NCBI GenBank assembly: GCA_030041455.1
Contig: JASHNV010000113.1
Coordinates: 1 to 37,191 of the forward strand
Reading direction: 5' to 3'
From: Spirochaetia bacterium
GTDB taxonomy: Bacteria; Spirochaetota; Spirochaetia; DAHUYW01
DNA: 37,191 nt
Part shown: one piece after another, positions 6,974 through 36,080 of the stretch
Layout of the letters: the number at the start of each line of letters is the position of its first letter
Numbering within the stretch: position 1 is the first letter of the stretch
Program-made: the position numbers and the translations under genes
Notes under the pieces: model-generated
Told to the model about the DNA's origin: nothing
The model's input: only the letters and a program-made list of their open reading frames with translations
Database searches by the model: none

Positions 6974-9208
6974 ATGAAACTACGAAGCGAATGGGTCGCG
7001 TTTCGGGGCGGAACGTGGACGGATCACATCGATGTTCGCGACTTCATCCAGCGCAACTATCAACCGTACGACGGCGACGAGGGCTTCTTGGCCGGCGCAA
7101 CGGGCAGAACCCGATCTCTGTGGGACCGCCTGCTCGATCTCATGAAGGTCGAGCGCGAGAAGGGGGTTCTCGACGCGGACACCGAGGTCGTATCGTCGAT
7201 CACCTCCCATCGGCCCGGTTACATCGACCGGGAGAAGGAGACGATCGTCGGGCTGCAGACCGAGCTTCCGCTGAAGCGAGCGCTCATGCCCTTCGGCGGC
7301 ATCAAGCTCGCCGGGAAGGCGCTTGAGTCGTACGGATACGCGATCTCCCCGAAGGTGGAGGAGATCTTCACGCGCTACCGGAAGACTCACAACGAGGGCG
7401 TTTTCGATCTCTACACCGAGGAGATCCGCAAGGCGCGCCATTCCGGCATCATCACGGGCCTTCCCGACGCCTACGGCCGCGGAAGGATCATCGGAGACTA
7501 CCGCAGGGTCGCGCTCTACGGGGTCGATCGGCTCATCGAGGACAAGAAGGCGCAAAAGGAGGCCGGCTCCGCCGCCGAGACCGTCTGGCAGAGACTCGCG
7601 GAGATCGACGAGCTCGCCGAGCAGATCAAGGCGCTCGGCGAGCTCAAGGAGATGGCGGCCTCCTACGGCTTCGACGTCGGCCGTCCGGCGGCGAGCGCCA
7701 AGGAAGCGGTCCAGTGGACCTATTTCGCCTTCCTCGCGGCGGTGAAGGAGCAGAACGGCGCCGCGATGTCGCTCGGCCGCGTCTCGACCTTCTTCGATAT
7801 CTACTTCGAGCGGGACTTGAAGGCCGGCGCGATCAGCGAGTCGGAGGCGCAGGAGCTCGTCGACCACTTCGTGATGAAGCTGCGCCTCGTGCGCTTCCTC
7901 CGCACCCCGGACTACAACGCGCTCTTCTCGGGCGACCCGACCTGGGTGACCGAGGCGATCGGCGGCGTGGGGACCGACGGTCGGCCGCTCGTCACGAAAA
8001 CGAGCTATCGATTCCTCAACACGCTGCGCACCCTCGGTCCGGCGCCCGAGCCGAACATGACGGTCCTCTGGTCGAAGGGGCTTCCCGAGCCGTTCAAGCG
8101 CTACTGCGCGGCGCTCTCGATCGACGCGAGCTCGATTCAGTACGAGAGCGACGACCTCATGCGCCCGATCTTCGGGGACGACTACGGCATCGCCTGCTGC
8201 GTCTCGGCCATGCGCCTGGGCAAGCAGATGCAGTTCTTCGGCGCGCGCTCGAACCTCGCGAAGGCGCTCCTCTACGCGATCAACGGCGGCCGCGACGAGA
8301 TCAGCGGCATCCAGGTGGGGCCGGAGTTCGCGCCGGTGACCTCCGACGTCCTGGACTACGAGGAGGTCATGCGCCGCTTCGATCAGACCCTCGATTGGCT
8401 CGCCCGCATCTACGTGGAGGCGCTGAACGACATCCACGCCATGCATGACCGCTACTGCTACGAGCGGCTGCAGATGGCGCTCCATGACCGCGAGATCCTG
8501 AGGACGCTCGCGTGCGGCATCGCGGGACTCTCGGTGGTGGCCGACTCGCTGTCCGCCATCAAGCACGCGAAAGTGACGGCGATCCGCGACGAAAGGGGCT
8601 TGGCGGTCGACTTCCGTATCGACGGAGAGTACCCCGCCTTCGGCAACAACGACGAGCGGGTTGACGCGATCGCGCGCGACGTGCTCGAGAGGTTCATCAC
8701 GAAGCTCCGCCGCCAGCGCACCTATCGGGGATCGGTGCCGACCGTTTCGATCCTCACCATCACGTCGAACGTGGTCTACGGCAAGATGACCGGAACCACC
8801 CCGGACGGCCGCAGGAAGGGCGAGCCGTTCGCGCCCGGGGCGAACCCGATGCACGGACGCGACAAGAACGGCGCGGTCGCTTCGATGGAATCCGTCGCGA
8901 AGCTTCCCTACCGTCTCGCCCTCGACGGGATCTCCTACACGTTCTCGATCGTCCCGGGCGCGCTCGGGCGGTCCCGCGACGAGCGCACGTCGAACCTCGT
9001 GGCGCTGCTCGAGGGGTACTTCAAGGACGGCGGCCACCACATCAACGTGAACGTCTTCGACAAGGAGACGCTCCTCGACGCGATGGACCATCCGGAGAAG
9101 TACCCGCAGCTCACGATCCGGGTCTCCGGCTACGCGGTCAACTTCATCAAGCTCACCCGGGAGCAGCAGCTTGAGGTGATCCACCGCACCTTCCATCAGC
9201 GGTTCTAG
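6974..9208 (+). CDS. pflB: Pyruvate formate-lyase (formate C-acetyltransferase)
   Basis: This glycyl-radical enzyme converts pyruvate and CoA to acetyl-CoA and formate in the cytoplasm under anaerobic conditions. The 744 residues compare with about 760 in E. coli PflB. The catalytic Cys pair is present in [15 protein letters not shown] (C408-C409), which separates true PFL from the diol- and glycerol-dehydratase-type relatives. The radical glycine lies in [11 protein letters not shown] (G719) near the C-terminus, as in PflB. Other landmarks are [36 protein letters not shown] and [23 protein letters not shown] perfect AGGAGG precedes the ATG. The activase gene follows after 10 nt. No focA formate channel is adjacent. 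Confidence 0.97.
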
Positions 9209-9218
9209 GGGGCGTTCC

Positions 9219-9965
9219 ATGGACACGGTAGGCAGGATCCATTCCTTCGAAAGCTGCGGCACGCTCGACGGCCCGGGTCTGCGCTTCGTGATCTTCTTCC
9301 AAGGCTGCTCGCTTCGCTGCAAGTTCTGCCACAATCCGGACACGTGGAATCCGAACGGCGGGCGGGAGTACACGGTCGACGAGATCCTCGACGAGGCGGA
9401 AAAGTACCGCTCCTACATGGAGGCCTCAGGCGGCGGGATAACCGCCACCGGAGGCGAGCCGCTCTACCAGGCGGATTTCGTGGCGGCGCTCTTCCGGAGC
9501 GCCCACGAGCGTGGCTTCCACACCACCCTCGACACGGCGGGGTACTCCGCCCGCGCGGAGGAGGCGCTCCTCCATACCGACCTCGTGATGTTCTGCCTCA
9601 AGGCCTACGACCCCGTCGCCTTCAAGCGGGTCGCGGGAGGCTCGGTCGAGCTCCCGCTCGCCTTCGCCGAGCAGCTCGCCCGGCTCGGCAAGCGGACATG
9701 GCTTCGCTACGTGCTCGTTCCCGGGCTGACCGACGACCCGCAGGAGATCGGGGCGGTCGCCCGGTACGCCGCGTCGCTCGGGGTCGTCGAGAAGGTCCAG
9801 GTCCTGCCCTTCCACAAGATGGGAGAGTTCAAGTGGGAGAGCCTCGGCTACCCGTACACCCTCAAGGAGGTGGATCCGCCGGATGACGCGATGATTGCCC
9901 GGACGGAGGCGTTGTTCCGCGAGGCGTTCGCGCGACATCCCGTGCGCATCGAGAGCTCCCGATAG
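9219..9965 (+). CDS. pflA: Pyruvate formate-lyase-activating enzyme (radical SAM)
   Basis: The 248-residue protein generates the glycyl radical on PflB using S-adenosylmethionine and a 4Fe-4S cluster. The CX3CX2C cluster motif is seen at C30, C34 and C37 (QGCSLRCKFCHNPDTW), followed by the radical-SAM GGEP segment (TATGGEPLYQ). The start (HSFESCGTLDGPGLRFVIFFQGC) and the end of the barrel (VLPFHKMGEFKWESLGYPYTLKEV) match PflA rather than other glycyl-radical activases, and there is no extra ferredoxin insert. It begins 10 nt after pflB and is followed by a strong terminator, so the two form a bicistronic unit. Confidence 0.97.
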   Translation: MDTVGRIHSFESCGTLDGPGLRFVIFFQGCSLRCKFCHNPDTWNPNGGREYTVDEILDEAEKYRSYMEASGGGITATGGEPLYQADFVAALFRSAHERGFHTTLDTAGYSARAEEALLHTDLVMFCLKAYDPVAFKRVAGGSVELPLAFAEQLARLGKRTWLRYVLVPGLTDDPQEIGAVARYAASLGVVEKVQVLPFHKMGEFKWESLGYPYTLKEVDPPDDAMIARTEALFREAFARHPVRIESSR

Positions 9966-22441: not shown

Positions 22442-23500
22442 CTACTGCCTCGCCCTCAGGTACTGATTCGGCCACGCGACCTCCGCCTTGAGCTCACTTG
22501 CCGCGCGAAGCGGCCAGTAGGGGTCCCTGAGGAGCCCGCGCGCCATCGTGACCAGATCGGCCTGACCGGAGCGAAGGATGTGCTCCGCCTGCTGCGCGGA
22601 GGTGATGAGCCCGACCGCGCTCGTCGCGATACCCGCCTCGCGGCGGATCCGCTCGGCAAAGACCGTCTGGTAGCCGGGACCGATCGGAATCTTCGCCGTC
22701 GCGACGTTGCCTCCCGACGAGCAGTCGAGGAGATCCACCCCCTCGCCCGCGAGCAATCGCGCGAGCTCCACCGACTGCTCGATATCCCAGCCGCCCTCGG
22801 TCCAATCGGTCGCGGAAATCCTCACGAGGAGCGGAAGCCGCTCCGGCCAGACCGCCCTCACCGCCTTCGCCACCTCGATCACGGCGCGGACGCGGTTCTC
22901 GAACGGGCCGCCGTACTCGTCGGAGCGGGCGTTGGAGAGCGGCGAGAGGAACTCATGGAGAAGATAGCCGTGCGCGGCGTGGATCTCGACCGCCTGGAAG
23001 CCCGCGTCGAGGGCCCGGCGCGCGGCGTCGGCGAACGAGCGGACGATCCGCGCGATCTCGGGCTTCGAGAGCGCCTCGGGGATCGGGTAGCCGGGCGCGA
23101 ACGGCGTCGCGCTCGGCGCGACCGGCGTCCAGCCTCCCGCCCGTTCGCTCACCGCGCCCTCGCCCTCCCACGGGACGGCCGTCGATCCCTTTCGCCCGGC
23201 GTGGGCGAGCTGCATTGAGGCGACCGCCCCGCGCGCCTTGATGAAGTCCGTGATCCGCCTCAGGAACGGAATATGATCGTCCTTCCAGATTCCTAGGTCG
23301 CCGGGGCTGATCCTGCCGCGCTCCTCGACGGCGGTCGCCTCCGTGCTCACGAGGCCGGCGCCTCCGACCGCGCGGCTTGCGAGATGAACGAAGTGCCAGT
23401 CGTTTGCGAAGCCGTCTTCGCTCGAATACTGGCACATGGGCGAGACGGCGATGCGATTCCGCAGTCTGACGTCCCGCAGGGAAAGCTCCTCGAACAGCAT
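22442..23500 (-). CDS. namA: Old yellow enzyme family NADH:flavin oxidoreductase (YqjM/NamA type)
   Basis: The 352-residue FMN enzyme reduces activated C=C bonds with NAD(P)H. YqjM-class marks are the start LFEELSLRDVRLRNRIAVSPMCQYS with the redox-tuning Cys (C23) and Tyr (Y25), QLAHAGRKGST, the substrate-binding His pair in VEIHAAHGYLLHEFLSPLSNARSDEYGG, and the FMN-phosphate segment VGLITSAQQAEHIL, then ADLVTMARGLLRDPYWP. Length matches the class. GAGGAG lies 10 nt before the ATG. It precedes an aldo/keto reductase on the same strand and is divergent from a LacI regulator. Confidence 0.95.
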   Translation of the reverse strand: MLFEELSLRDVRLRNRIAVSPMCQYSSEDGFANDWHFVHLASRAVGGAGLVSTEATAVEERGRISPGDLGIWKDDHIPFLRRITDFIKARGAVASMQLAHAGRKGSTAVPWEGEGAVSERAGGWTPVAPSATPFAPGYPIPEALSKPEIARIVRSFADAARRALDAGFQAVEIHAAHGYLLHEFLSPLSNARSDEYGGPFENRVRAVIEVAKAVRAVWPERLPLLVRISATDWTEGGWDIEQSVELARLLAGEGVDLLDCSSGGNVATAKIPIGPGYQTVFAERIRREAGIATSAVGLITSAQQAEHILRSGQADLVTMARGLLRDPYWPLRAASELKAEVAWPNQYLRARQ

Positions 23501-24947: not shown

Positions 24948-26144
24948 ATGGCGACACATCGAGAATTGACGGATCGAGCGCTGAACGACGGCAACGGCAT
25001 CCTCCGCCTCATGCCGAATTGGGTCCCGCGGTCGTTCTGCGTGCCGGGCAAGCGCATCAAGCTGCACCCCGACCACTACTACGCCTATGGCGCCCATCGC
25101 GGAGGCATCGACGAGCGGTGGTTCTCGTCGACGACGAGGGCGCAGAACGGCCCCGAGACCCTGCCCGACGAGGGGTTGAGCTACATCTACGTCGAGTCGA
25201 CGCGCGAGAAGGTGCTCCTGCGCGACGCCCTCGCGAGCCACGGAAAGGAAATCCTCGGCGCGAAGGTCATGGAGAAGCACGGCGGCTGGACGATGTACAG
25301 CAAGTTCTTCGACAATCAGGGCCCGCTTCCCTTTCACCTCCACCACACCGACGCCAAGGCGGCCGAGGTGGCGCAGCGCGGAAAGCCTGAGGCCTACTAC
25401 TTCCCCCGGCAGCTCAACAACCACGCCGGACACTTTCCCTACACGTTTTTCGGGCTCCATCCGAGGACGACGCGCGAGGAGCTCAAGCGCCGTCTCGCCG
25501 ATTGGGACAAAGGGGACAACGGGGTGCTCTTCCTGTCGAGCGCCTACAAGCTCGAGCTCGGCACCGGGTGGAACGTCCCGCCGGGCGTCCTGCACGCCCC
25601 CGGCACGCTGCTCACCTACGAGCCGCAGCGGGCCTCCGACATCTCGTCGATGTTTCAGTCCATCGTCTGGGACGCCTACATTCCCCGGGAGCTCCTCACG
25701 AAGGACGTTCCCGACGACCGCAAGAACGATCTCGACTACCTCGTGAGCCTCGTCGAGTGGGAGCTCAACGTCGACGCCGACTTCCACGAGCGGAACTTCA
25801 CGAAGCCGAAGCCGGTGAAGCCGATCGAGCAGATGCGCGCCGAGGGGTACGAAGAGAACTGGATCGCCTACAAATCGGAGTACTTCTCCGCGAAGGAGCT
25901 CACCGTCCTCCCCGGAAGGACCGCGACCATCCAGGACGAAGGCGCCTACGGCGCCATCGTCGTCCAGGGCAGGGGTCGGATCGGCGCGCTCGACATCGAG
26001 TCCCCGGCGATGATCCGATTCGGCGAGATGACCCACGACGAGCTGTTCGTGACCGAGGCGGCCGCGAAGGGCGGCCTGCGCGTGACGAATACGAGCGGCG
26101 TCGAGGATCTCGTCATGCTCAAGCACTTCGGTCCCTCCGCCTGA
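24948..26144 (+). CDS. Cupin protein resembling class I phosphomannose isomerases
   Basis: The 398-residue cytoplasmic protein shows a metal-binding cupin: PFHLHHTDAKAAEVAQRGKPEAYYF gives the H-x-H...E motif, and LGTGWNVPPGVLHAPGTLLTYEPQ gives the second His motif. The arrangement resembles type I mannose-6-phosphate isomerase, with a second, degenerate cupin-like C-terminal part (ELTVLPGRTATIQDEGAYGAIVVQGRGRIGALDIES, then FGEMTHDELFVTEAAAKGGLRVTN). Identity to characterised isomerases is not obvious. A sugar or sugar-phosphate isomerase or epimerase role is inferred from fold and context. GAGAGAGG lies 9 nt before the ATG; the structured leader and uORF upstream suggest regulated translation. 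It is followed after 38 nt by a Hyi-like TIM barrel and preceded by a LacI regulator. Confidence 0.72.
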   Translation: MATHRELTDRALNDGNGILRLMPNWVPRSFCVPGKRIKLHPDHYYAYGAHRGGIDERWFSSTTRAQNGPETLPDEGLSYIYVESTREKVLLRDALASHGKEILGAKVMEKHGGWTMYSKFFDNQGPLPFHLHHTDAKAAEVAQRGKPEAYYFPRQLNNHAGHFPYTFFGLHPRTTREELKRRLADWDKGDNGVLFLSSAYKLELGTGWNVPPGVLHAPGTLLTYEPQRASDISSMFQSIVWDAYIPRELLTKDVPDDRKNDLDYLVSLVEWELNVDADFHERNFTKPKPVKPIEQMRAEGYEENWIAYKSEYFSAKELTVLPGRTATIQDEGAYGAIVVQGRGRIGALDIESPAMIRFGEMTHDELFVTEAAAKGGLRVTNTSGVEDLVMLKHFGPSA

Positions 26145-26182
26145 AAATGGCCGCCCGCGCGCCCGGGCGGGAGGCTTCGACG

Positions 26183-26992
26183 ATGGTAAGCGTCTGCATC
26201 GAGACGGTGTTCACCGAGCTCGGCTACGAGGAGCGCGTTCGGAGGATCGGCGACCTCGGTTTCCGGGGGGTCGAGATCTGGAGCATCGACGGCACCTGGG
26301 ACGGCGCCCGGATCAACCGGGAGCGTCCGAAGGACGCCGCGCGGCTTGCGCGCGCCTGCCGGGAGGCAAACGTCGAGCTCGTCGGCCTCGTCATGAACGC
26401 GACCGACGGCTCCGAGGGCGCTCCGGTGAGCCTCGCGGGGCGGAGCCTCTTCGAGGGGCAATTCGCCCGCGTCTCGCGCTTCATGGCCGACTCGGGCTGC
26501 CGGAACGCCGTCGTGATGCCGGGTCCGATCGATCCCCGACTGAGCCCCGCCGAGATGGAGCGCAATCTTGAGGGCGCGCTCGAGCGAGTCCTCCCGGGCT
26601 CGGAGCGGCTCGGAATAACCCTCCTCCTCGAGCCGCTCAACACGGTCGTCGACCACCCCGGTTTTGCGCTCGCTCGCTCGGCGGACGCCTTCCGCATCGT
26701 GCGCGCGATGGGAAGCGATCGCCTGAAGGTCCTCTACGACCTCTACCACATGCAGATCATGGAAGGGAACCTCATCGATACGATCCTGGGAAACCTTCGC
26801 GACATCGCTCACCTGCACGCCGCCGGGGTGCCCGGCCGGGCCGAGATCGAGGGCTGCGAGCTCAACTATCCGGAGATCGTTCTTCGCGCCGAGCGGGCGG
26901 GCTACGGGGGATATGTCGGGCTTGAGTATTTCCCCACCTACGATCACGCGCAGTCCCTCGCGCGGCAGCTCCGCTACCTCCTCCCGCGCTAA
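26183..26992 (+). CDS. Hydroxypyruvate isomerase / OtnI-like TIM-barrel isomerase
   Basis: The 269-residue protein belongs to the AP-endonuclease-2 TIM-barrel isomerases, closest in pattern to Hyi (hydroxypyruvate isomerase) and OtnI (2-oxo-tetronate isomerase). Seen are the metal/catalytic Glu E150 in LLLEPLNTVVDHPGF, D186/H189/Q191 in VLYDLYHMQIMEGN, LHAAGVPGRAEIEGCELNYPEI with the Hyi-type PGR-x-E loop, and E248 in YVGLEYFPT. ATG 26183 is chosen because GGGAGG precedes it at about 9 nt; ATG 26147 in frame would add 12 unrelated residues. It follows the cupin gene in the same direction. The reaction is aldose/ketose-type isomerisation of a short oxo-acid or sugar; the exact substrate is open. 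Confidence 0.85.
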   Translation: MVSVCIETVFTELGYEERVRRIGDLGFRGVEIWSIDGTWDGARINRERPKDAARLARACREANVELVGLVMNATDGSEGAPVSLAGRSLFEGQFARVSRFMADSGCRNAVVMPGPIDPRLSPAEMERNLEGALERVLPGSERLGITLLLEPLNTVVDHPGFALARSADAFRIVRAMGSDRLKVLYDLYHMQIMEGNLIDTILGNLRDIAHLHAAGVPGRAEIEGCELNYPEIVLRAERAGYGGYVGLEYFPTYDHAQSLARQLRYLLPR

Positions 26993-27055: not shown

Positions 27056-27219
27056 GGCCGTGAGTTTCTTGTTGCGCGTCGGTCCGAGGTGTGATAGAGC
27101 TTTGGAGAGATGATCGGGTCGCGCGCCGGCGGGCGGTTTTTCGCCTCGGCGCGCGAGACCGGAGCAAAAGCCGCGAGTCGGCGCCGAAGAGCGCGATGCG
27201 GGCTGGGGAAATCGTCAGC

Positions 27220-28206
27220 GTGAAAGTCACCTTCAAGGAGATCTCCGAGATCTGCGGCGTCTCCCTCGGCACCGTCGACCGAGCGATCAACAACAGGCCG
27301 GGGATCCACCCCGAGACGAGGGCGCGCATCCTCGAGGTGGCGAAGCAGCTCGGATATCGCCCCCACCTCCTCGCGCGCAGCCTCGCGACCGGCTCCACGA
27401 TGACGATCGGAGTCGTCGTCCCGAACCTCACGAACTCCTTTTTCTCCGAGCTCGCCGAAGTCATTCAAAAGGGGGCGCGCCGGGCGGGGTACTACGTCTA
27501 CCTCATGCTGAGCGAGTACGACTCCGTGGAGGAGATGGAGTCCCTCGAGCGGTTGCGATCGCTCAACGTCGACGGGATCATCATGACGTCGGTCAACCGC
27601 GGCCGCTCCTTCGACGCCTACCTCACGAGCCTCGCGACGCCGGTCGTCTCGGTCAGCAACCGGATCTCGAAGCGGCGCGCCTGGGTGGGCATCGACGACT
27701 ACTCGGCGACCCGCGACGCGATGAGGTTCGTGCTGTCGAAGGGGTACGAGCGGATCATCTTCGTCACGGAGAACCGAGGTCCCGGGAAGGTGAGCAATCT
27801 CTACTGCGACGAGCGGAGGATTCGGGGCTACAAGGACGCGCTGCAGGCAAGCGCTCTCGACGCCCCCCCGACCGTGGTCAGCGACGACGCGATGCTCGCG
27901 ATGCTCGATTCGGGGGGCGCTCTCGACGGGAAGCGGACCTGCATCGCCTGCTCGTGCGACGAGGTCGCGCTCAACATCCTGAACGCCTTGCGAACGCGCG
28001 GCATCGCCGTCCCCGCGGAGGTCGGTCTCACCGGCTTCGACAACCTCGATCAGCTCGAGTACGTGGTTCCTCGGCTCACGACGGTGGCCTATCCCATGGA
28101 ACGGATCGGCGAGGAGGCCTTCAAGAGCGTCCTCGACGAGATCAACGGCCGCGCGGGCGGCTCGCGCACGCTCGAGCACCTCATCGTCGAGGGGGAGACC
28201 GTGTAG
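27220..28206 (+). CDS. LacI-family transcriptional regulator 2
   Basis: The 328-residue regulator has a LacI helix-turn-helix (KVTFKEISEICGVSLGTVDRAINNRPGI) with TVDRAIN in place of the common TVSRVLN, the hinge (YRPHLLARSLATGSTMTIGVVVP) and an effector domain (ELAEVIQKGARRAGYYVYLMLSEYD, RLRSLNVDGIIMTSVNR, FVLSKGYERIIFVTE, RGIAVPAEVGLTGFDNLDQLEYVVPRLTTV, GEEAFKSVLDEI). GTG 27220 gives the standard MKVTFKEI start; ATG 27196 in frame is the alternative, and neither has a strong ribosome binding site. It lies just upstream of the ABC transporter/GH51 block, whose promoter carries a LacI-type palindrome with a central CG, so it is the likely regulator of that block. Confidence 0.92.
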   Translation: MKVTFKEISEICGVSLGTVDRAINNRPGIHPETRARILEVAKQLGYRPHLLARSLATGSTMTIGVVVPNLTNSFFSELAEVIQKGARRAGYYVYLMLSEYDSVEEMESLERLRSLNVDGIIMTSVNRGRSFDAYLTSLATPVVSVSNRISKRRAWVGIDDYSATRDAMRFVLSKGYERIIFVTENRGPGKVSNLYCDERRIRGYKDALQASALDAPPTVVSDDAMLAMLDSGGALDGKRTCIACSCDEVALNILNALRTRGIAVPAEVGLTGFDNLDQLEYVVPRLTTVAYPMERIGEEAFKSVLDEINGRAGGSRTLEHLIVEGETV

Positions 28207-28528: not shown

Positions 28529-28975
28529 ATGCCGGCAATCAATCCGAAAGGCGTCTGTCAAATTGCGCTTGTCGTCAGGGACATTCAAAAGACTGCGCGG
28601 AGCTTTTCCGAGGTGCTCGGGCTCCCGATGCCGAAAATCTTCAGCACCCCGCCCGCCGAAGTGGCGCACACCCGCTTCCGCGGCAAACCGACCAACACGC
28701 GGGCGCAGCTCGCGGTGTTCGATCTCGGCCCCGTCGTGCTTGAGCTTACCCAGCCCGACGGCGAGCCGAGCTCGTGGAAGGAGTTCCTCGATGCGCATGG
28801 CGAGGGCGTCCACCACATCGGGTTCAAGGTCGACGATCTCGGCGGAGCGCTCGCATTCCTGGAGCAGAAGGGCATGCCGGAACGGCACAGCGGGGACTAT
28901 CCCGGCGGCCGCTATGTCTTCGTGGAGAGCGCCGAGAGGCTCGGCGTGCTTCTGAACATTAAGCACGACTCCTGA
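28529..28975 (+). CDS. VOC-family protein 1 (glyoxalase/methylmalonyl-CoA-epimerase fold)
   Basis: The 148-residue protein has the two beta-alpha-beta-beta-beta units of the vicinal-oxygen-chelate fold: QIALVVRDIQKTARSFSEVLGL, AQLAVFDLGPVVLELTQPDG, then GEGVHHIGFKVDDLGGALAFLEQKG and YPGGRYVFVES. Compared with methylmalonyl-CoA epimerase, the first metal His is Gln (Q11), the His in GVHHIGF is kept, and the last metal Glu is Asn (N143), so the metal site is altered. It is clearly a paralogue of the VOC protein at 32363-32818 (shared RGKPxxxRA, G-P, EPSSW/EPSTW, GEGVHHxxF, GGRY). GAAAGG precedes the ATG. It is the first gene after the operon promoter. Function is unknown; keto/enediol sugar chemistry or lyase/epimerase activity is possible. 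Confidence 0.85.
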   Translation: MPAINPKGVCQIALVVRDIQKTARSFSEVLGLPMPKIFSTPPAEVAHTRFRGKPTNTRAQLAVFDLGPVVLELTQPDGEPSSWKEFLDAHGEGVHHIGFKVDDLGGALAFLEQKGMPERHSGDYPGGRYVFVESAERLGVLLNIKHDS

Positions 28976-29046
28976 GGAGCGGACGAGGGTGAGGGAAGCG
29001 GTTTGGTGAAGAATCACGTCACGATTTCGGCCAAGAGGAGGCAGAA

Positions 29047-30363
29047 ATGACCAAGAAGAAGTGGGCGATGCTGAAACTCGTCGGGCTCCTTGCCGGGGTG
29101 GTCGCATTGCCGGTGCTCGTGGGCGGATGCTCCGCAGGCTCGTCGACGGCTTCGAAGGGTGGCACCCTGACCTATTGGTCCCCCTACGGCGGGGACTCGT
29201 TGAAATGGGATCAGTGGCGCATCGGCCAGTTTCAGAAGGCCAATCCCGACGTCACGGTCAACCTGATCGCGACGCCGAGCGGCGGAATCACCAACGGTAA
29301 GCTGCTCGCGGCGATCGCGGGCGGGGACGCGCCCGACATCATCATCTCCGACAACGCAAGCGCCGCGTACTCCTTCGCCGCGAACGGAACGGCGACTCCC
29401 TGGGACATGAGCAAGGTCACGCTGAAAATCGCCGACCTGCTTCCCGGCATGCAGCCGGTCACCCAAATCAACGGCAAGACCTATCTGCTCCCGCAGGACT
29501 CGAACGTGATCATGCTCTACATGAACACGAAGCTCTTTCAGGAGGCGGGGCTCGACGTCAACAACCCGCCCAAGACGATCGACGACCTGGACGCGATGGC
29601 CGCCAAGCTCGACAGCATCAGCGGGGGCAACATTCAGCGCTTCGGCTTCATCCCCTGGCTCGACTACGGCGGGGACAACGCGTTCTACTGGCCGTGGATG
29701 TTCGGAGCGACCGTCTACGACACGTCGTCCGGCAAGCTCGACCTCACCTCGCCCCAGATGGTGAGCGTGTACAAGTGGATGAACAAGTACGCGCAGAAGA
29801 CGAGTCCGACCACGATGAAGGGCTTCACGTCCGGATTCGGCGCGCTGTTTTCCCCCGATCACCCCTTCATGACCGGCAAGGTCGCGATGACGGTGGTCGG
29901 CAACTGGTTCACCAACGCGCTTCGAATCTACGCGCCGACGATCCAGTACGCGGTCGCGAAGGTGCCGGCGCCCGAGGGCGGACGAGCGGGCGGGACCGTT
30001 TTCCAGTCGAACGTCTACCTGCTTCCGAAGGGCGCGAAGCGCCTCGACCTCGCCTATCGTTTCTACAACTTCTGCGAGACCACGCCGATCCTCGCGAACG
30101 ACTTCGACATCTGGCGATCGATCCCGACCAACGACAAACAGTTCGACGAAGTGAGCTGGACGAAGAAGGGCGACCCGATCTACAAGATCGAGCGAGAGCT
30201 CGCGAACTCGCCCAACTCGGGCACTCCCGCCCTGACGAAGGTCGCGGCCGAGCTCGGCGACGACCTGAACGCGCTTCGCGACGACGTCATCTACAACAAC
30301 CGGGATCCGCTCCCGCTCCTGCAGAGCCTGCAAGACAAGTACACCAAGGAGCTCGCCCAGTAG
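29047..30363 (+). CDS. ABC sugar transporter, lipoprotein substrate-binding protein
   Basis: The 438-residue family-1 solute-binding protein starts with a lipoprotein signal (basic start, hydrophobic core, VLVGGC with C28 lipidated). The mature part has the binding-protein pattern: GGTLTYWSPYGGDSLKWDQWRIGQFQKANPDVTV, KLLAAIAGGDAPDIIISDNA, YLLPQDSNVIMLYMNTKLFQEAGLD, FPDHPFM-like GALFSPDHPFMTGKVAMTVVGNW and VFQSNVYLLPKGAKRLDLAYRFYNF. These match oligosaccharide or glycerol-3-phosphate type binders. A strong GAGGAGG lies 6 nt before the ATG. Permease genes follow; the GH51 enzyme downstream points to arabinose-containing oligosaccharides. A lipid anchor on a binding protein in an organism with an outer membrane is typical of spirochaetes. 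Confidence 0.94.
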   Translation: MTKKKWAMLKLVGLLAGVVALPVLVGGCSAGSSTASKGGTLTYWSPYGGDSLKWDQWRIGQFQKANPDVTVNLIATPSGGITNGKLLAAIAGGDAPDIIISDNASAAYSFAANGTATPWDMSKVTLKIADLLPGMQPVTQINGKTYLLPQDSNVIMLYMNTKLFQEAGLDVNNPPKTIDDLDAMAAKLDSISGGNIQRFGFIPWLDYGGDNAFYWPWMFGATVYDTSSGKLDLTSPQMVSVYKWMNKYAQKTSPTTMKGFTSGFGALFSPDHPFMTGKVAMTVVGNWFTNALRIYAPTIQYAVAKVPAPEGGRAGGTVFQSNVYLLPKGAKRLDLAYRFYNFCETTPILANDFDIWRSIPTNDKQFDEVSWTKKGDPIYKIERELANSPNSGTPALTKVAAELGDDLNALRDDVIYNNRDPLPLLQSLQDKYTKELAQ

Positions 30364-30378
30364 CCTGGGCGGCTCCGT

Positions 30379-30406
30379 CGCGGCCGCCCTCCCTAGGTCG
30401 GCCGCG
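30379..30406 (+). other. Intercistronic hairpin after the binding-protein gene
   Basis: A perfect 8-bp stem CGCGGCCG/CGGCCGCG with a 12-nt loop begins 15 nt after the binding-protein stop and has no T-run. Such stems commonly keep the upstream binding-protein message more stable than the permease message. Confidence 0.45.
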
Positions 30407-30529
30407 CGCGGAAGGGCTCGTCAAACCGCCCCGGAACCGGCCGATCGACGGTCTCGGGGCTTGATGTTCCTCCCGCTTTGGAGTAACGAGAGGGAAAGCG
30501 CGGAGCGCGGGCGGGGCGGTGTTCGGAAG

Positions 30530-31387
30530 ATGGCGGTTATCGGGAGACTGAGGAGAGCGAGGTACCTAGAGCGCGGCGAGCTCGTCGTCACCGTCACGCT
30601 CCTCGGAGCGCTCAGCGTCGTTTACATCGTTCCGTTCATCTGGATGGCGCTGAGCTCGCTCAAGCTACCCCAGGAGCTCTTCATCGTGCCGATGCGCTGG
30701 TTTCCGAAGAAGCTCGAGTTCTCGAACTACGCGCGGATGTTCAGGGAGTTCCCCTTCCTCCTCGACTTGAGGAACACCATGATCCTCGTCGTGGTGAACA
30801 TCGTGAGCGCGGTCCTCTCCAACACCTTTATCGCGTACGGATTCTCCAAGATCGAGTGGAAGGGCCGGGAGCCGCTCTTCTACGTCGTGCTCGCGACGAT
30901 CATCCTGCCCTTCCAGGTCGTCATGATCCCGCTGTTCATCATGTTCCATACGTTCCACTGGATCGGCACCTTCTTTCCGCTGACCGTTCCCGGGTTCTTC
31001 GGCAACGCGTTCTTCATCTTTCTCCTGCGCCAATTCTACCTTTCGATCCCCAACGAGCTTTCCTACGCCGCGAAGATCGACGGCGCCAACGAGTTCATGA
31101 TCTACAGCCGCATCGTTCTTCCGCTCTCGAGCGCCGCCATCGCGACGGTGGTCATCTTCTCCTTCCTGCGCACGTGGAACGATTTTATCGGCCCCCTGAT
31201 TTTCCTGAGCGACAACCGGCTCTACACGCTGTCGCTCGGCGCCCAGCAGATCATGCAGAACCTCGATCCGAAATGGGACCTGCTGCTCACCTTGGGGGTC
31301 GTCATGACCTTCCCGGTCCTCGTGTTGTTTTTCCTGCTGCAAAAGTACTTTATTCAAGGGATCGCGATGTCCGGGATCAAGGGGTAG
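30530..31387 (+). CDS. ABC sugar transporter permease, MalG type
   Basis: The 285-residue inner-membrane protein has six predicted helices and the MalG-class start (ERGELVVTVTLLGALSVVYIVPFIWMALSSLKLPQELF). The EAA loop that docks the ATPase is LSYAAKIDGANEFMIYSRIVLPLS, and the C-terminus (WDLLLTLGVVMTFPVLVLFFLLQKYFIQGIAMSGIKG) is classic for MalG. ATG 30530 with GGAAG nearby is preferred to an in-frame ATG at 30461 that would add a polar 23-residue tail. It precedes the MalF-type gene, the reverse of the usual order. Confidence 0.93.
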   Translation: MAVIGRLRRARYLERGELVVTVTLLGALSVVYIVPFIWMALSSLKLPQELFIVPMRWFPKKLEFSNYARMFREFPFLLDLRNTMILVVVNIVSAVLSNTFIAYGFSKIEWKGREPLFYVVLATIILPFQVVMIPLFIMFHTFHWIGTFFPLTVPGFFGNAFFIFLLRQFYLSIPNELSYAAKIDGANEFMIYSRIVLPLSSAAIATVVIFSFLRTWNDFIGPLIFLSDNRLYTLSLGAQQIMQNLDPKWDLLLTLGVVMTFPVLVLFFLLQKYFIQGIAMSGIKG

Positions 31388-31393
31388 GGGAGC

Positions 31394-32272
31394 ATGCTGA
31401 AAGCTCGTCGGAATCAGATCAACGGTCTCCTTTTCGTCTCCCCTTGGATCGTGGGCTTTCTCGTGTTCATCACCTATCCGGTGCTCGCGTCGCTGTACTA
31501 CTCCCTCACGAAGTACGACGTGATCCACCCTCCCGAGTTCCGCGGGCTGGGGAACTACCTCGATCTCATCCTCCGCGACGACGTGTTTCGCATCGCGCTC
31601 CTGAACACGCTCTACATGATCGTCGTGGGGACCGTCGTGATCACGGTGGTCACCATCACGATCGCGATCGTGCTCAACAACCGGCAGATCCGGGGCCTCT
31701 CGGTGTTCCGGGTGGTCTTTTTCATTCCCACCCTCGTCCCGCTCGTGATTCTCTGCATCGTCTGGATCTGGATCCTTCAGCCGCAGACCGGCCTGCTCAA
31801 CACCTGTCTCTCCTACGTCGGCATCCGCGGGCCCGGGTGGCTCGCCGATCCGCGCCTCGCGAAGCCGGCCTTCATCATGATGTTCCTCTGGACCTCCGGA
31901 GGCGCGGTGATCATCTACCTCGCGGGGCTTCAGGACATTCCCGAGACGCTCTACGAGGTCGCCTCGATCGACGGAGCGGGCTTCCTCAGGCGGACCTTCA
32001 CGATTACGGTGCCGCTCCTCTCGCCGGTCATCCTTTTCAACGTCGTGACCTACGTCATCGGGATTTTCCAGTCGTTCGCCGAGTCGTTCATCATCACGTC
32101 GGGCGGGCCCGACCGCTCGACGCTCTTTTACTCGCTCTACCTGTACCAGAACGCATTCCAGTACTTCAAGATGGGCCTCGCCTCCGCGATGGCATGGATC
32201 CTGTTGATCATCGCCGCGCTGTTCATCGCGATCCTGCTCGGCCTGGAGAGGCGGTTCGGCTACCGGCAGTGA
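31394..32272 (+). CDS. ABC sugar transporter permease, MalF/UgpA type
   Basis: The 292-residue six-helix protein starts like MalF/UgpA permeases (RNQINGLLFVSPWIVGFLVFITYPVLASLYYSLTKYDV). It has the EAA loop DIPETLYEVASIDGAGFLRRTFTITVPLLSP and ends ...LGLERRFGYRQ. It starts 6 nt after the MalG-type gene. With the binding protein it forms an importer lacking an ATPase gene in this window; a shared MsmK-like ATPase encoded elsewhere would have to energise it. GCGC-GAAA-GCGC (32281-32292), a small tetraloop hairpin, follows the stop. Confidence 0.93.
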   Translation: MLKARRNQINGLLFVSPWIVGFLVFITYPVLASLYYSLTKYDVIHPPEFRGLGNYLDLILRDDVFRIALLNTLYMIVVGTVVITVVTITIAIVLNNRQIRGLSVFRVVFFIPTLVPLVILCIVWIWILQPQTGLLNTCLSYVGIRGPGWLADPRLAKPAFIMMFLWTSGGAVIIYLAGLQDIPETLYEVASIDGAGFLRRTFTITVPLLSPVILFNVVTYVIGIFQSFAESFIITSGGPDRSTLFYSLYLYQNAFQYFKMGLASAMAWILLIIAALFIAILLGLERRFGYRQ

Positions 32273-32362
32273 GGGCGCTCGCGCGAAAGCGCCGTTCGGC
32301 CCCGGGTCGCCCGAGACGCGCCGGCCGGCAACCCTCGAGGAAAACGTAAGGAGGAGAAATCG

Positions 32363-32818
32363 ATGGAAAACGCCATTCTCGGAACGCACGTCGTCGCCCA
32401 GGTGGGCATACTCGTCCGCGACATCGAGAAATCCGCGCAGGTCTACGCCGACTTTCTCGGCGTGGAGAAACCGGAAATCCGGCTCACCGACGCGATCGAC
32501 CGGGCGCAGACCAAGTTCAAGGGCAAGCCCTCGACGGCGCGCGCGAAGCTCGCCTTCTTCAAGGTCGGGCCGACCTTGGACATCGAGCTCATCGAGCCCG
32601 ACAAGGAGCCGAGCACCTGGAGGAACGACCTCGATCGCAAGGGGGAGGGGGTCCACCACCTCGCCTTCGTGGTGAAGGACATGAGGGACAAGGTCGTGAA
32701 GCTCGAGCGCGAGGGCATGACGCTCCTGCAGACCGGGGAATACACCGGAGGGCGGTACGCCTACTTCGACGCCGAGCGGGACCTGAAGGTCGTCGTCGAG
32801 CTTCTGGAGAACGACTGA
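32363..32818 (+). CDS. VOC-family protein 2, paralogue of the operon's first gene
   Basis: The 151-residue protein has the same fold and order as the VOC protein at 28529-28975: VAQVGILVRDIEKSAQVYADFLGV, KGKPSTARAKLAFFKVGPTLDIELIEPDKEPSTW, GEGVHHLAFVVKDMRDKVVKLEREG, TGGRYAYFDAERDLKVVVELLEND. Here too the first metal His is Gln (Q13), but the final Glu (E146) is kept, so the two copies differ in their metal sites. AAGGAGGAG is about 8 nt before the ATG. It lies between the permeases and an aldo/keto reductase in the same operon. Two diverged copies suggest a heterodimer or two successive reactions. Confidence 0.85.
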   Translation: MENAILGTHVVAQVGILVRDIEKSAQVYADFLGVEKPEIRLTDAIDRAQTKFKGKPSTARAKLAFFKVGPTLDIELIEPDKEPSTWRNDLDRKGEGVHHLAFVVKDMRDKVVKLEREGMTLLQTGEYTGGRYAYFDAERDLKVVVELLEND

Positions 32819-32851: not shown

Positions 32852-33793
32852 ATGAGCGCGGCGCGGAAGCCGGCGAAGATTCCCGGAGGTCTCGGGCTCG
32901 GATGCTGGGAGTTCTCGGATATCGGAAGCGGGCCGCCGAGCGACGAGCGCTCGATCGAGATCATTCGCACCGCGCTCTCCCTCGGAGTCCGGCACTTCGA
33001 CACGGCGCAGGATTACGGCGACGGTCACTCCGAGCGCGTCCTCGGGCGGGCGATCGCCTCGGTCCCGGGCGGGATTTTCGTCGCGACGAAGACCCACGCC
33101 GCCGGGCGCGCCGACACGATCAGCCGGGTCGAGGAGTCCCTCGCCCGGTTGGGGAGGAGCTCGGCCGACCTGTTCTACGTCCATTGGCCGCACCGGGGCG
33201 TCGACCTCCGTCCCATGATGGAGGCGCTTGAAGAGCTCCGCTCGCGCGGTCTCATCCGGCTGATCGGGGTGAGCAATTTCGGCGTCGAGGAGATGGCGCT
33301 CGCGGGAGAGGCGTGCAGGATCGACGTCCACCAGCTCTGCTACAACCTGCTCTGGCGGTTTCCGGAGCGGGAGGTGATCCCCTACTGCCGTGAGAACGGC
33401 ATCGAGATCGTGACCTACAGCTCGATCGCCCAGGGGCTCCTCTCCGATACGCCCCGCTCGCCCGAGGCGTTCGATCCGGGCGACGCCCGCCGGAGAACCG
33501 TGTACTACCGCGACGACGTTTGGCCGCGCCTTCGGGAGGCGGTCGACGCGATGCGCTCGATCGCGAGGAGGGCCTCCCTTCCCTTGAGCACGCTCGCGAT
33601 CCGGTGGCTGCTCGGCCGTCCGGGCGTCGCGGGCGTCCTCGTCGGCGCACGGTCGGTGGAGCAGCTTCGAAGCAACGTCGAGGCCGCATCGGGCGGGCTC
33701 GACCCGGCGACGGAAGGCGAGCTCGACCTCGCATCGGCGGAGGCGATGCGTCACATCCCCGATGTCGGGAACATCTTTCTCTTCTATCCGTGA
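32852..33793 (+). CDS. Aldo/keto reductase of the arabinoside operon
   Basis: The 313-residue TIM-barrel oxidoreductase has the full catalytic tetrad D50 and Y55 (HFDTAQDYGDGHSE), K80 (FVATKTHAAG) and H111 (FYVHWPHRG), plus the cofactor loop VLVGARSVEQLRSNVEAA. It is clearly different from the aldo/keto reductase at 21357-22343. The substrate pocket region (VHQLCYNLLWRFPEREVIPYCRENGIEIVTYSSIAQGLL) fits the sugar or sugar-ketone reductase branch. It lies 33 nt after VOC protein 2 and 62 nt before GH51 in the same orientation, so it probably acts on the same substrate family. Confidence 0.93.
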   Translation: MSAARKPAKIPGGLGLGCWEFSDIGSGPPSDERSIEIIRTALSLGVRHFDTAQDYGDGHSERVLGRAIASVPGGIFVATKTHAAGRADTISRVEESLARLGRSSADLFYVHWPHRGVDLRPMMEALEELRSRGLIRLIGVSNFGVEEMALAGEACRIDVHQLCYNLLWRFPEREVIPYCRENGIEIVTYSSIAQGLLSDTPRSPEAFDPGDARRRTVYYRDDVWPRLREAVDAMRSIARRASLPLSTLAIRWLLGRPGVAGVLVGARSVEQLRSNVEAASGGLDPATEGELDLASAEAMRHIPDVGNIFLFYP

Positions 33794-33855: not shown

Positions 33856-35358
33856 GTGAACGCAAAGGCGACCGTCGACAGAGATTTCGCGATCGGAAAG
33901 ATCGACCCGAGGATCTACGGCTCGTTCATCGAGCATCTCGGGCGCGTCATTTACGGCGGGATCTACGAGCCGCTCCATCCTCGCGCGGACGCGAACGGCT
34001 TCCGCCGGGACGTCATCGACGTCGTCAAAGAGCTTCGGGTTCCGCTCATCCGCTACCCGGGAGGCAACTACAGCTCAAGCTACGACTGGCGGGACAGCGT
34101 CGGTCCGGTCGCCGAGCGGCCGGCGCGGCCCGATCTCGCGTGGAGGTCGCTTGAGCCCAACACCTTCGGGCTCGACGAGCTCGACCGGTGGTCGAAGGAG
34201 CTCCCCGCGGGAGTCTTGATGACGCTCAACATGGGGACGCAGGGCCTTCGGGAAGCGATCGAGCTCCTCGAATACTGCAATCTGCCCGGGGGAACCTCGC
34301 TCAGCGATCTGCGCAGGCGCCACGGTCGGGAGAAGCCCTACGGGATCAAGCTCTGGTGCCTCGGAAACGAGATCGACGGCCCGTGGCAGGTCGGACAGAA
34401 GTCGGCCGCCGAGTACGGGAGGCTCGCAAACGAGACCGCGAAGGCGATGAAGCTCCTCGACCCCGAGGTCAAAGTCTGCGTCTGCGGGAGCTCCTTCCTC
34501 AAGATGCCGACCTTCCCGGAGTGGGAGCAGACTGTCCTCGATCTGTGTTACGACAACGTGGACTATCTGTCGCTTCACACCTATTGCCGAAACGAGCGCG
34601 CCGAGCGCTCCGCCTATCTCGCGGAGCCCGTCGGGATGGAGCGCTACCTCGAGACTGCGCTCGGCGTGTGCGACCGCGTGAGGCTCAAGAAGGGAGCGGC
34701 AAAAAGGCTGGACGTCTCGTTCGACGAGTGGAACGTCTGGCCGAGGGCGAGGGAGTCCGACCGGGATCGCGACCCCTGGCAGGTCGCTCCGCCCCTTCTC
34801 GAAGAGGCCTATACGACGGAGGACGCGCTTGTCTTTGCCTGCATGCTCAACGTACTCTTACGGCACGCCGAGCGGGTGCCGATCGCCTGCCTCTCGCTCC
34901 TCGTGAACGCGCTCGCGCCCATCATGACGGAGACCGGCGGCGCCGTGTGGAGGCAAACGACGTTCTATCCGTTCAAGTACGCCTGCCTCTACGGCACCGG
35001 CTCGTCGCTTCGCCTCGCCGTCGACGGTCCGGTCTACGAGGATCGGGTCTTCGGAAGCGTGCCCTTTCTGGACGCCTCGGCCGCCTACGACTCGGCGCGC
35101 GGGGAGATCGCCGTTTTCCTCGTGAACCGAAGCGACGCCTCGGCGATCGACCTCGAGCTCGCGCTCGGTCGCGGCGAGCATGCCGAGCTCATCGAGCATG
35201 TCGTGCTCGAAAGCGGGGATCCGATGGCGGGAAACGACGCCGGCTCCCCCGGTCGGGTGGTTCCTCGGCGAAAAGACGGCCCGAGCGAATCGGTCGGGGG
35301 AGCATTTCGGCTGAGTCTCCCGGCATTTTCTTGGAACATGATTCGCCTCGCGCTGTAG
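33856..35358 (+). CDS. abfA: GH51 alpha-L-arabinofuranosidase
   Basis: The 500-residue retaining glycosidase removes alpha-L-arabinofuranosyl groups from arabinan, arabinoxylan or their oligosaccharides. The acid/base Glu is E172 in WCLGNEIDGPWQVG and the nucleophile is E291 in VSFDEWNVWPR; IYGSFIEHLGRVIYGGIYEP, RYPGGNYSSSYDWRDSVGP and EPNTFGLDEL are GH51 hallmarks. No signal peptide is present, so it works on imported oligosaccharides in the cytoplasm. The start is GTG 33856: AGGAGG (33843-33848) lies 7 nt upstream, while the overlapping ATG at 33854 is followed at once by TGA. Length is normal for intracellular GH51 enzymes. Confidence 0.96.
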   Translation: MNAKATVDRDFAIGKIDPRIYGSFIEHLGRVIYGGIYEPLHPRADANGFRRDVIDVVKELRVPLIRYPGGNYSSSYDWRDSVGPVAERPARPDLAWRSLEPNTFGLDELDRWSKELPAGVLMTLNMGTQGLREAIELLEYCNLPGGTSLSDLRRRHGREKPYGIKLWCLGNEIDGPWQVGQKSAAEYGRLANETAKAMKLLDPEVKVCVCGSSFLKMPTFPEWEQTVLDLCYDNVDYLSLHTYCRNERAERSAYLAEPVGMERYLETALGVCDRVRLKKGAAKRLDVSFDEWNVWPRARESDRDRDPWQVAPPLLEEAYTTEDALVFACMLNVLLRHAERVPIACLSLLVNALAPIMTETGGAVWRQTTFYPFKYACLYGTGSSLRLAVDGPVYEDRVFGSVPFLDASAAYDSARGEIAVFLVNRSDASAIDLELALGRGEHAELIEHVVLESGDPMAGNDAGSPGRVVPRRKDGPSESVGGAFRLSLPAFSWNMIRLAL

Positions 35359-35417: not shown

Positions 35418-36080
35418 ATGAAACGTGCATTGATCGTGAGGGGAGGCTGGGACGGGCATGAGCCGGTCAAGGTATCGGAGCTCCTCGGGGGGCTTTTGCG
35501 CGAGAACGGGTTCGAGGTGGAGATCTCCGATACCCTCGACTCTTTCAACGACGCCGACGCGCTGAAGCGCTTGAGCCTCATCGTGCCGATCTGGTCGATG
35601 GGGCGCATTCTCCCCGAGCAGGAGAAGGCGGTGCTCTCGGCCGTCGAGTCGGGGGTCGGGATCGGCGGATGCCACGGAGGCATGTGCGATTCCTTCCGCG
35701 AGAGCGTCGGGTGGCAGTTCCTGACCGGCGGGCAGTGGGTCGCTCATCCCGGAAACGACGGCGTCGAGTACGTCGTGAACGTGAGGAGCGCCTCGAGCCC
35801 GATAACCCAGGGCATCGGCGATTTTCCGGTGAAGAGCGAGCAGTACTACATGCACGTCGACCCCGCCGTCGAAGTGCTCGCGACGACGAGGTTTCCGATC
35901 GCGCCGGGTCCCTACGCCTCGAACGGCCAGGTCGACATGCCCGTCGTCTGGACGAAGCGCTGGGGCAGGGGAAGGGTGTTCTTCTCCTCCCTCGGCCACC
36001 ACGCCGACGTCATCGATCACGGCCCCGCGCTCGAGATCGTCCGCCGCGGCCTCATCTGGGCGTCGGCGGAGGACCCGTGA
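35418..36080 (+). CDS. ThuA-like (trehalose-utilisation) family protein
   Basis: The 220-residue protein has the class-I-glutamine-amidotransferase-like ThuA fold: ALIVRGGWDGHEPVKVSELLGGLL, DALKRLSLIVPIWSMGRI, GVGIGGCHGGMCDSF with the GGCHGG elbow, GQWVAHPGND, DFPVKSEQYYMHVDPAVEVLATTRF, and MPVVWTKRWGRGRVFFSSLGHHADV. ThuA proteins act with Gfo/Idh-type ThuB in catabolism of 3-keto-disaccharides. Here too a Gfo/Idh gene follows after 20 nt. GGAG stands 12 nt before ATG 35418; an out-of-frame ATG lies at 35411. Its partner reaction in an arabinoside operon is open. Confidence 0.88.
   Translation: MKRALIVRGGWDGHEPVKVSELLGGLLRENGFEVEISDTLDSFNDADALKRLSLIVPIWSMGRILPEQEKAVLSAVESGVGIGGCHGGMCDSFRESVGWQFLTGGQWVAHPGNDGVEYVVNVRSASSPITQGIGDFPVKSEQYYMHVDPAVEVLATTRFPIAPGPYASNGQVDMPVVWTKRWGRGRVFFSSLGHHADVIDHGPALEIVRRGLIWASAEDP

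Follow-up and report, generated by a model that had tools for sequence, protein, structure and literature searches.

The glyoxalase I and methylmalonyl-CoA epimerase (MMCE) enzymes offer described metal sites with which new members of the vicinal oxygen chelate (VOC) superfamily can be compared. In glyoxalase I, the glutamate at the fourth metal-ligand position also serves as the catalytic base. The metal ligands are Gln33, Glu99, His126 and Glu172 in the human enzyme (PMC10810659), and His50, His122 and Glu172 in human MMCE, named MCEE (PMC6525113). The stretch analysed here, hereafter the window, comprises all 37,191 nucleotides of contig JASHNV010000113.1 from a Spirochaetia bacterium and encodes two VOC proteins, VOC1 (28529..28975) and VOC2 (32363..32818), whose nearest solved structure in both cases is 3GM5 from Thermoanaerobacter tengcongensis, entitled 'putative methylmalonyl-CoA epimerase'. 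This assignment is only putative, and several relatives of 3GM5 are encoded in mannoside or oligosaccharide loci. The comparison indicates that the site of VOC2 is normal for the 3GM5-type subfamily, whereas VOC1 differs from 3GM5 by an Asn at ligand 4, a derived state conserved throughout a clade with members in six genomes.

Metal sites of the two VOC proteins

VOC1 (148 aa) and VOC2 (151 aa), both encoded on the + strand with ATG start codons, align end to end in BLASTP with 42% identity over 137 residues and 67% similarity (E=1e-42) and are most likely ancient paralogues; they are the sole members of their family in the 3.39 Mb assembly. The full-length paralogy proposed in a first-pass annotation of the locus is borne out, including all four motifs quoted there (GKPTNTRA/GKPSTARA, EPSSW/EPSTW and GEGVHHIGF/GEGVHHLAF in VOC1/VOC2, and GGRY in both). 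Both proteins match PF13669 (Glyoxalase_4; 8e-17 for VOC1 and 2.5e-18 for VOC2) and contain the paired beta-alpha-beta-beta-beta modules of the VOC superfamily, and their close sequence kinship together with Gln at ligand 1 places them in the same subfamily as 3GM5, which is 62% identical to VOC2 (TM 0.89, rmsd 1.0 A) and 41% identical to VOC1 (TM 0.87) in structure alignments.

Alignments and AlphaFold2 models (pLDDT 85 for VOC1 and 94 for VOC2) agree on the ligand columns: VOC1 has Q11/E72/H96/N143, VOC2 has Q13/E75/H99/E146, and in the models each set occupies strands one, four and five and the last strand of the paired VOC modules. In the family profile, position 13 corresponds to residue 33 of 1FRO (human glyoxalase I) as judged by the alignment range; the end of the profile (149 to 175), again from alignment ranges only, keeps E146 in register with Glu172; and the Gln column coincides with the His that forms ligand 1 in human MCEE (3RMU; LNHVAIAV). 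The first-pass annotation had thus correctly placed Gln at the first ligand position of both proteins and N143 and E146 at the last one, and the objection it had itself foreseen, that the Gln might lie outside the ligand position, is removed by the same alignments. By sequence, the four-residue metal site is complete in VOC2 and incomplete in VOC1, which has Asn143 at ligand 4.

The further supposition that Gln in place of His marks a changed site did not hold. The retrieved loci supplied 114 homologous domains, of which 63 are of the QEHE type with Gln at the column of VOC1 H120, 16 further ones are QEHE with another residue at that column, and about 20 more distant ones are HEHE. The alignment shows 3GM5 to be QEHE as well, in the same columns as VOC2, and the Zn ligands of human glyoxalase I are of the same four types, also in these columns. 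Gln as an altered ligand was therefore rejected, and since Q/E/H/E is the rule in the subfamily, the site of VOC2 appears normal for it.

The likeness to the described enzymes has clear bounds. Similarity to human glyoxalase I is very low (profile E 0.001), the gene context is another one, and VOC1 is devoid of an equivalent of Glu172. The MMCEs (1JC4, 3RMU and 6WF6) share the two-module VOC fold and are the best fold matches after 3GM5, but have His as ligand 1 and Gln as ligand 2 (Q60 in Streptomyces coelicolor), where the subfamily of VOC1 and VOC2 has Gln and Glu; moreover, the acid-base residue E43 of the S. coelicolor enzyme, mutated in 6xbs, aligns with Arg58 here, albeit in a weakly aligned stretch.

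The Asn-x-Lys clade and its Q/E/H/E partners

Proteins with Asn at ligand 4 turned up in six genomes, which span two phyla: that of the window, G440, G330, G138, G931 and the Bacillota genome G495 (locus L147). The six proteins, referred to as N-type, form one clade with a support of 99/96 in a tree against 32 other rows, and N143 and K145 are kept in all of them. The Glu-to-Asn change is a derived feature conserved in this clade, so the altered chemistry proposed in the annotation is plausible for VOC1, but not on account of the Gln, which is the subfamily norm. Ligand 1 is His in G138, and residue 120 is His in four of the proteins, Gln in G495 and Thr in G931. Judging from these sequences, Asn-x-Lys is the mark of the clade and His120 a frequent companion, since the last two proteins have the Asn without it. 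A strict swap of Gln to His120 and Glu to Asn143, which seemed perfect in three to four genomes, was likewise considered and is weakened by G495 and G931.

VOC1 is 74-75% identical to its orthologue in G440, and the dN of 0.17 against a dS of 1.19 for this pair (Nei-Gojobori, dS rough) indicates that the gene is maintained; VOC2 and its counterpart in L003 give a dN of 0.22 and a dS of 0.71 (same method, dS equally rough). Drift of VOC1 as a pseudogene was rejected because of the low dN/dS and the invariant Asn-x-Lys, which argues for purpose and not for decay. Because VOC1 keeps Gln/Glu/His and is under purifying selection, it most likely still functions, though in a re-tuned form. The proteins with Asn thus constitute a genuine and conserved sub-clade within a known kind, and the papers searched contained no description of it.

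Close family members (threshold E<=1e-28) occur in 16 of the 395 genomes of the class sample, and these include all 5 N-type genomes of that sample, each of which also has a Q/E/H/E copy (hypergeometric 6e-8 for the co-occurrence, with phylogeny and shared ancestry ignored). G495 has such a partner as well, so that 6/6 N-type genomes are paired. Both types are encoded within one cluster in the window, G330 and G138, whereas in G440, G495 and G931 the partner is encoded on a different contig or at a distance of about 0.9 Mb.

Separate degenerate companions exist in other genomes. KEFE and KEYE proteins in L006 form one clade with KESC in G348 (L006:7308-9439 and L105:2319-3956), and L006 contains four consecutive VOC genes beside sugar-type ATP-binding cassette (ABC) transporter genes. 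An independent and strongly degenerate companion, SEEE, occurs in G898 as part of a tandem QEHE and SEEE pair (L185:7337-8292) within a cluster of ABC, LacI, glycoside hydrolase (GH) family GH1, Gfo-Idh, MR_MLE and UxuA genes. Fused tandem VOC domains of the QEHP type, with Pro at ligand 4, adjoin apparent pyruvate-dehydrogenase-type component genes at L039:9884-11877 and L042:8020-9033.

Gene neighbourhoods in the window and in other genomes

As the first-pass annotation had stated, the two VOC genes bracket ABC transporter genes. VOC1 is followed by a sugar-type substrate-binding lipoprotein (29047..30363; PF01547, SBP_bac_1, 1.5e-27) and two permeases of the PF00528 (BPD_transp_1) family at 30530..31387 (start codon inferred, the open reading frame (ORF) beginning at 30461) and 31394..32272; no ATPase gene is present in this block. 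Behind VOC2 follow the aldo/keto reductase AKR2 (32852..33793; PF00248, 2.6e-65), an alpha-L-arabinofuranosidase-type (GH51-like) glycosidase (33856..35358; PF06964, 1.6e-38; inferred GTG start) and a ThuA-domain protein (35418..36080; PF06283, 5e-47). Since the genes from VOC1 (28529) to ThuA (36080) all lie on the + strand and are closely spaced (71 bp between VOC1 and the binding protein gene, 90 bp between permease and VOC2, 33 bp between VOC2 and AKR2), they are likely to constitute one operon behind the upstream gene for a LacI-type repressor (27217..28206, +; PF00356 and PF13377; start picked within the ORF 27091-28206).

Further upstream on the + strand are genes for a xylose-isomerase-like TIM barrel protein resembling hydroxypyruvate or tetronate isomerases (26174..26992; PF01261, 2.6e-29; NCBIfam TIGR03234 8e-39, below its cut-off) and for a 398-aa protein (24948..26144), which has no Pfam or NCBIfam match and looks cupin-like by eye. 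The latter may belong to the same pathway as the VOC genes; a 47% identical homologue adjoins the N-type VOC of G931 (L183:12861-14093). An FMN oxidoreductase of the OYE family (22442-23500) is 69% identical to the product of L003:3478-4704, a gene divergently adjacent to the VOC2 orthologue, and sequence reading alone suggests a glycyl radical enzyme like formate acetyltransferase (PFL) with its activase at 6974-9965.

Both VOC types recur in carbohydrate clusters with ABC importers, LacI, GH1, GH4, GH51 or GH130 glycosidases, ThuA, aldo/keto reductases (AKR) or short-chain dehydrogenases/reductases (SDR), and TIM-barrel isomerases, and a hand count gives about 15 of 21 VOC2-type loci in sugar settings. 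The neighbours of VOC2-type genes include AKR, ThuA, LacI and ABC genes: AKR2 and ThuA adjoin the VOC2-type gene together in L003/L104, L066 and L100; L103 combines AKR2 with ABC and GH1 genes, and ThuA recurs in L068. The VOC2-type loci from Bacillota contain ThuA, an AGE-family 2-epimerase, LacI and GH130 (L150), SDR, ThuA, LacI, AGE, GH130 and GH5 (L151), SDR beside ABC genes (L148 and L149), or GH5 and a mannosidase-type GH2 (L152). For the N-type genes, the neighbours are GH1 and ABC genes in G440, Gfo/Idh, TIM barrel and ABC genes in G495, GH4, LacI, TIM barrel, FGGY kinase, the homologue of the window's 398-aa protein and ABC genes in G931, and TIM barrel, SDR, Gfo/Idh and ABC genes in G138. 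In L066:11288-13674 (G330) and L102:7385-9786 (G350), genes for a PD40 beta-propeller protein and a tandem-VOC protein of 293-314 aa precede the VOC2-type gene, as supported by Pfam for G330 only.

Proposed functions and alternatives

The reading we favour, to which we give about even chances of being correct, is that VOC2 depends on a metal to isomerize or epimerize a keto-sugar and that VOC1 is its neofunctionalized paralogue with altered chemistry, both serving an operon for (oligo)saccharide catabolism and not the transporter itself. A glyoxalase-like site beside keto-sugar-type oxidoreductases and isomerases would fit enediolate chemistry on an alpha-hydroxy-ketone sugar, as derived from VOC and sugar biochemistry. 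VOC2 would bind one divalent ion at its Gln/Glu/His/Glu site and hold an alpha-hydroxy-ketone (or aldehyde) sugar via two vicinal oxygens, and Glu146 would shift a proton through an enediolate, thereby isomerizing or epimerizing a keto-sugar that the AKR or SDR, ThuA and TIM-barrel enzymes encoded nearby produce or consume. As the ligand-4 Glu is the base in glyoxalase I, the Asn of VOC1 should remove or move it; with Gln/Glu/His kept, VOC1 may possess a metal site with three protein ligands, or a site devoid of the enediolate base, and its substrate may be a related intermediate in this pathway.

Several points weigh against this proposal. VOC2-type genes stand alone by housekeeping genes in L004, L007, L067 and L101, so a sugar role of these genes is not universal, and the glycosidase types vary between neighbourhoods, so that any one substrate common to all of them would be conjectural. 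The alignment used as AlphaFold2 input was shallow (10 rows), with weak stretches in VOC1. A literature search retrieved no report on metal, substrate or activity of any 3GM5-type member, no relevant paper on 3GM5 itself, no paper describing the function of this subfamily and nothing useful on clusters combining VOC genes with sugar, ThuA or keto-sugar genes.

A heterodimer, as considered in the first-pass annotation, would make VOC1 a pseudoenzyme subunit that tunes stability or specificity while the VOC2 site alone is catalytic. In its favour, dimers are common among VOC proteins (PMC6525113), at least three origins of degenerate companions can be counted (the N-type, the K-type with KEFE, KEYE and KESC, and the SEEE member of the tandem pair), and a Q/E/H/E member accompanies the N-type one in each of the genomes found. 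However, the partner is encoded elsewhere in G440, G495 and G931, which disfavours an obligate, co-transcribed heterodimer, and VOC1 retains three of four ligand residues and an Asn-x-Lys that is invariant instead of drifting. We therefore regard the pseudoenzyme subunit as unlikely, and since partners are separate in 3/6 genomes, the evidence leans towards VOC1 being an enzyme on its own rather than a partner of VOC2. Loss of the fourth ligand at the position of the glyoxalase I base would also suit a non-catalytic ligand-binding or regulatory protein such as a sugar sensor, similar to VOC-fold binding and immunity proteins, but VOC1 is without a DNA-binding or signalling domain, and N-type proteins occur in catabolic operons of varied make-up, several of which have a LacI of their own (the window and G931), making this explanation decidedly improbable.

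That both proteins are ordinary MMCE or glyoxalase I enzymes is suggested by the title of 3GM5 and by TIGR03081 (MMCE) as top NCBIfam match, yet the two proteins score 41 and 47 bits with this model, about 70 bits below its equivalog cut-off of 115, the glyoxalase I model TIGR00068 gives 18 and 17 bits where 120 are required, ligands 1 and 2 as well as the E43 column differ from MMCE as described above, and the VOC genes adjoin sugar genes and no CoA-pathway genes; little credence can be given to this possibility. Even less probable is an action of the VOC proteins with the importer itself, for example as delivery or binding factors. The arrangement in the window and the position of the G138 VOC genes directly after the permeases speak for it, but the G440 orthologue of VOC1 adjoins an importer unrelated to that of the window (25% identity between the binding proteins), VOC2-type genes in L003 and L102 have no importer nearby, and no signal peptide is evident by eye in either VOC protein; the binding role tied to transport that had been suggested earlier is accordingly disfavoured.

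Beyond the favoured proposal, we tentatively put forward, as a rather doubtful extension, that the N-type clade represents a new type of VOC enzyme, in which the catalytic Glu ligand is swapped for an invariant Asn-x-Lys (often with His120) and which would perform a keto-sugar catabolic step new for VOC proteins, e.g., a lyase or dehydration reaction on a keto-glycoside, in sequence with the glyoxalase-like Q/E/H/E isomerase. The analysis defines a conserved VOC pair in carbohydrate operons, and 3GM5-like proteins named methylmalonyl-CoA epimerase, often found in sugar loci, are likely to be mis-annotated. If active, the N-type protein would show how a VOC site operates without its customary Glu, and it could uncover a step that is missing in bacterial glycoside breakdown via keto-sugars.

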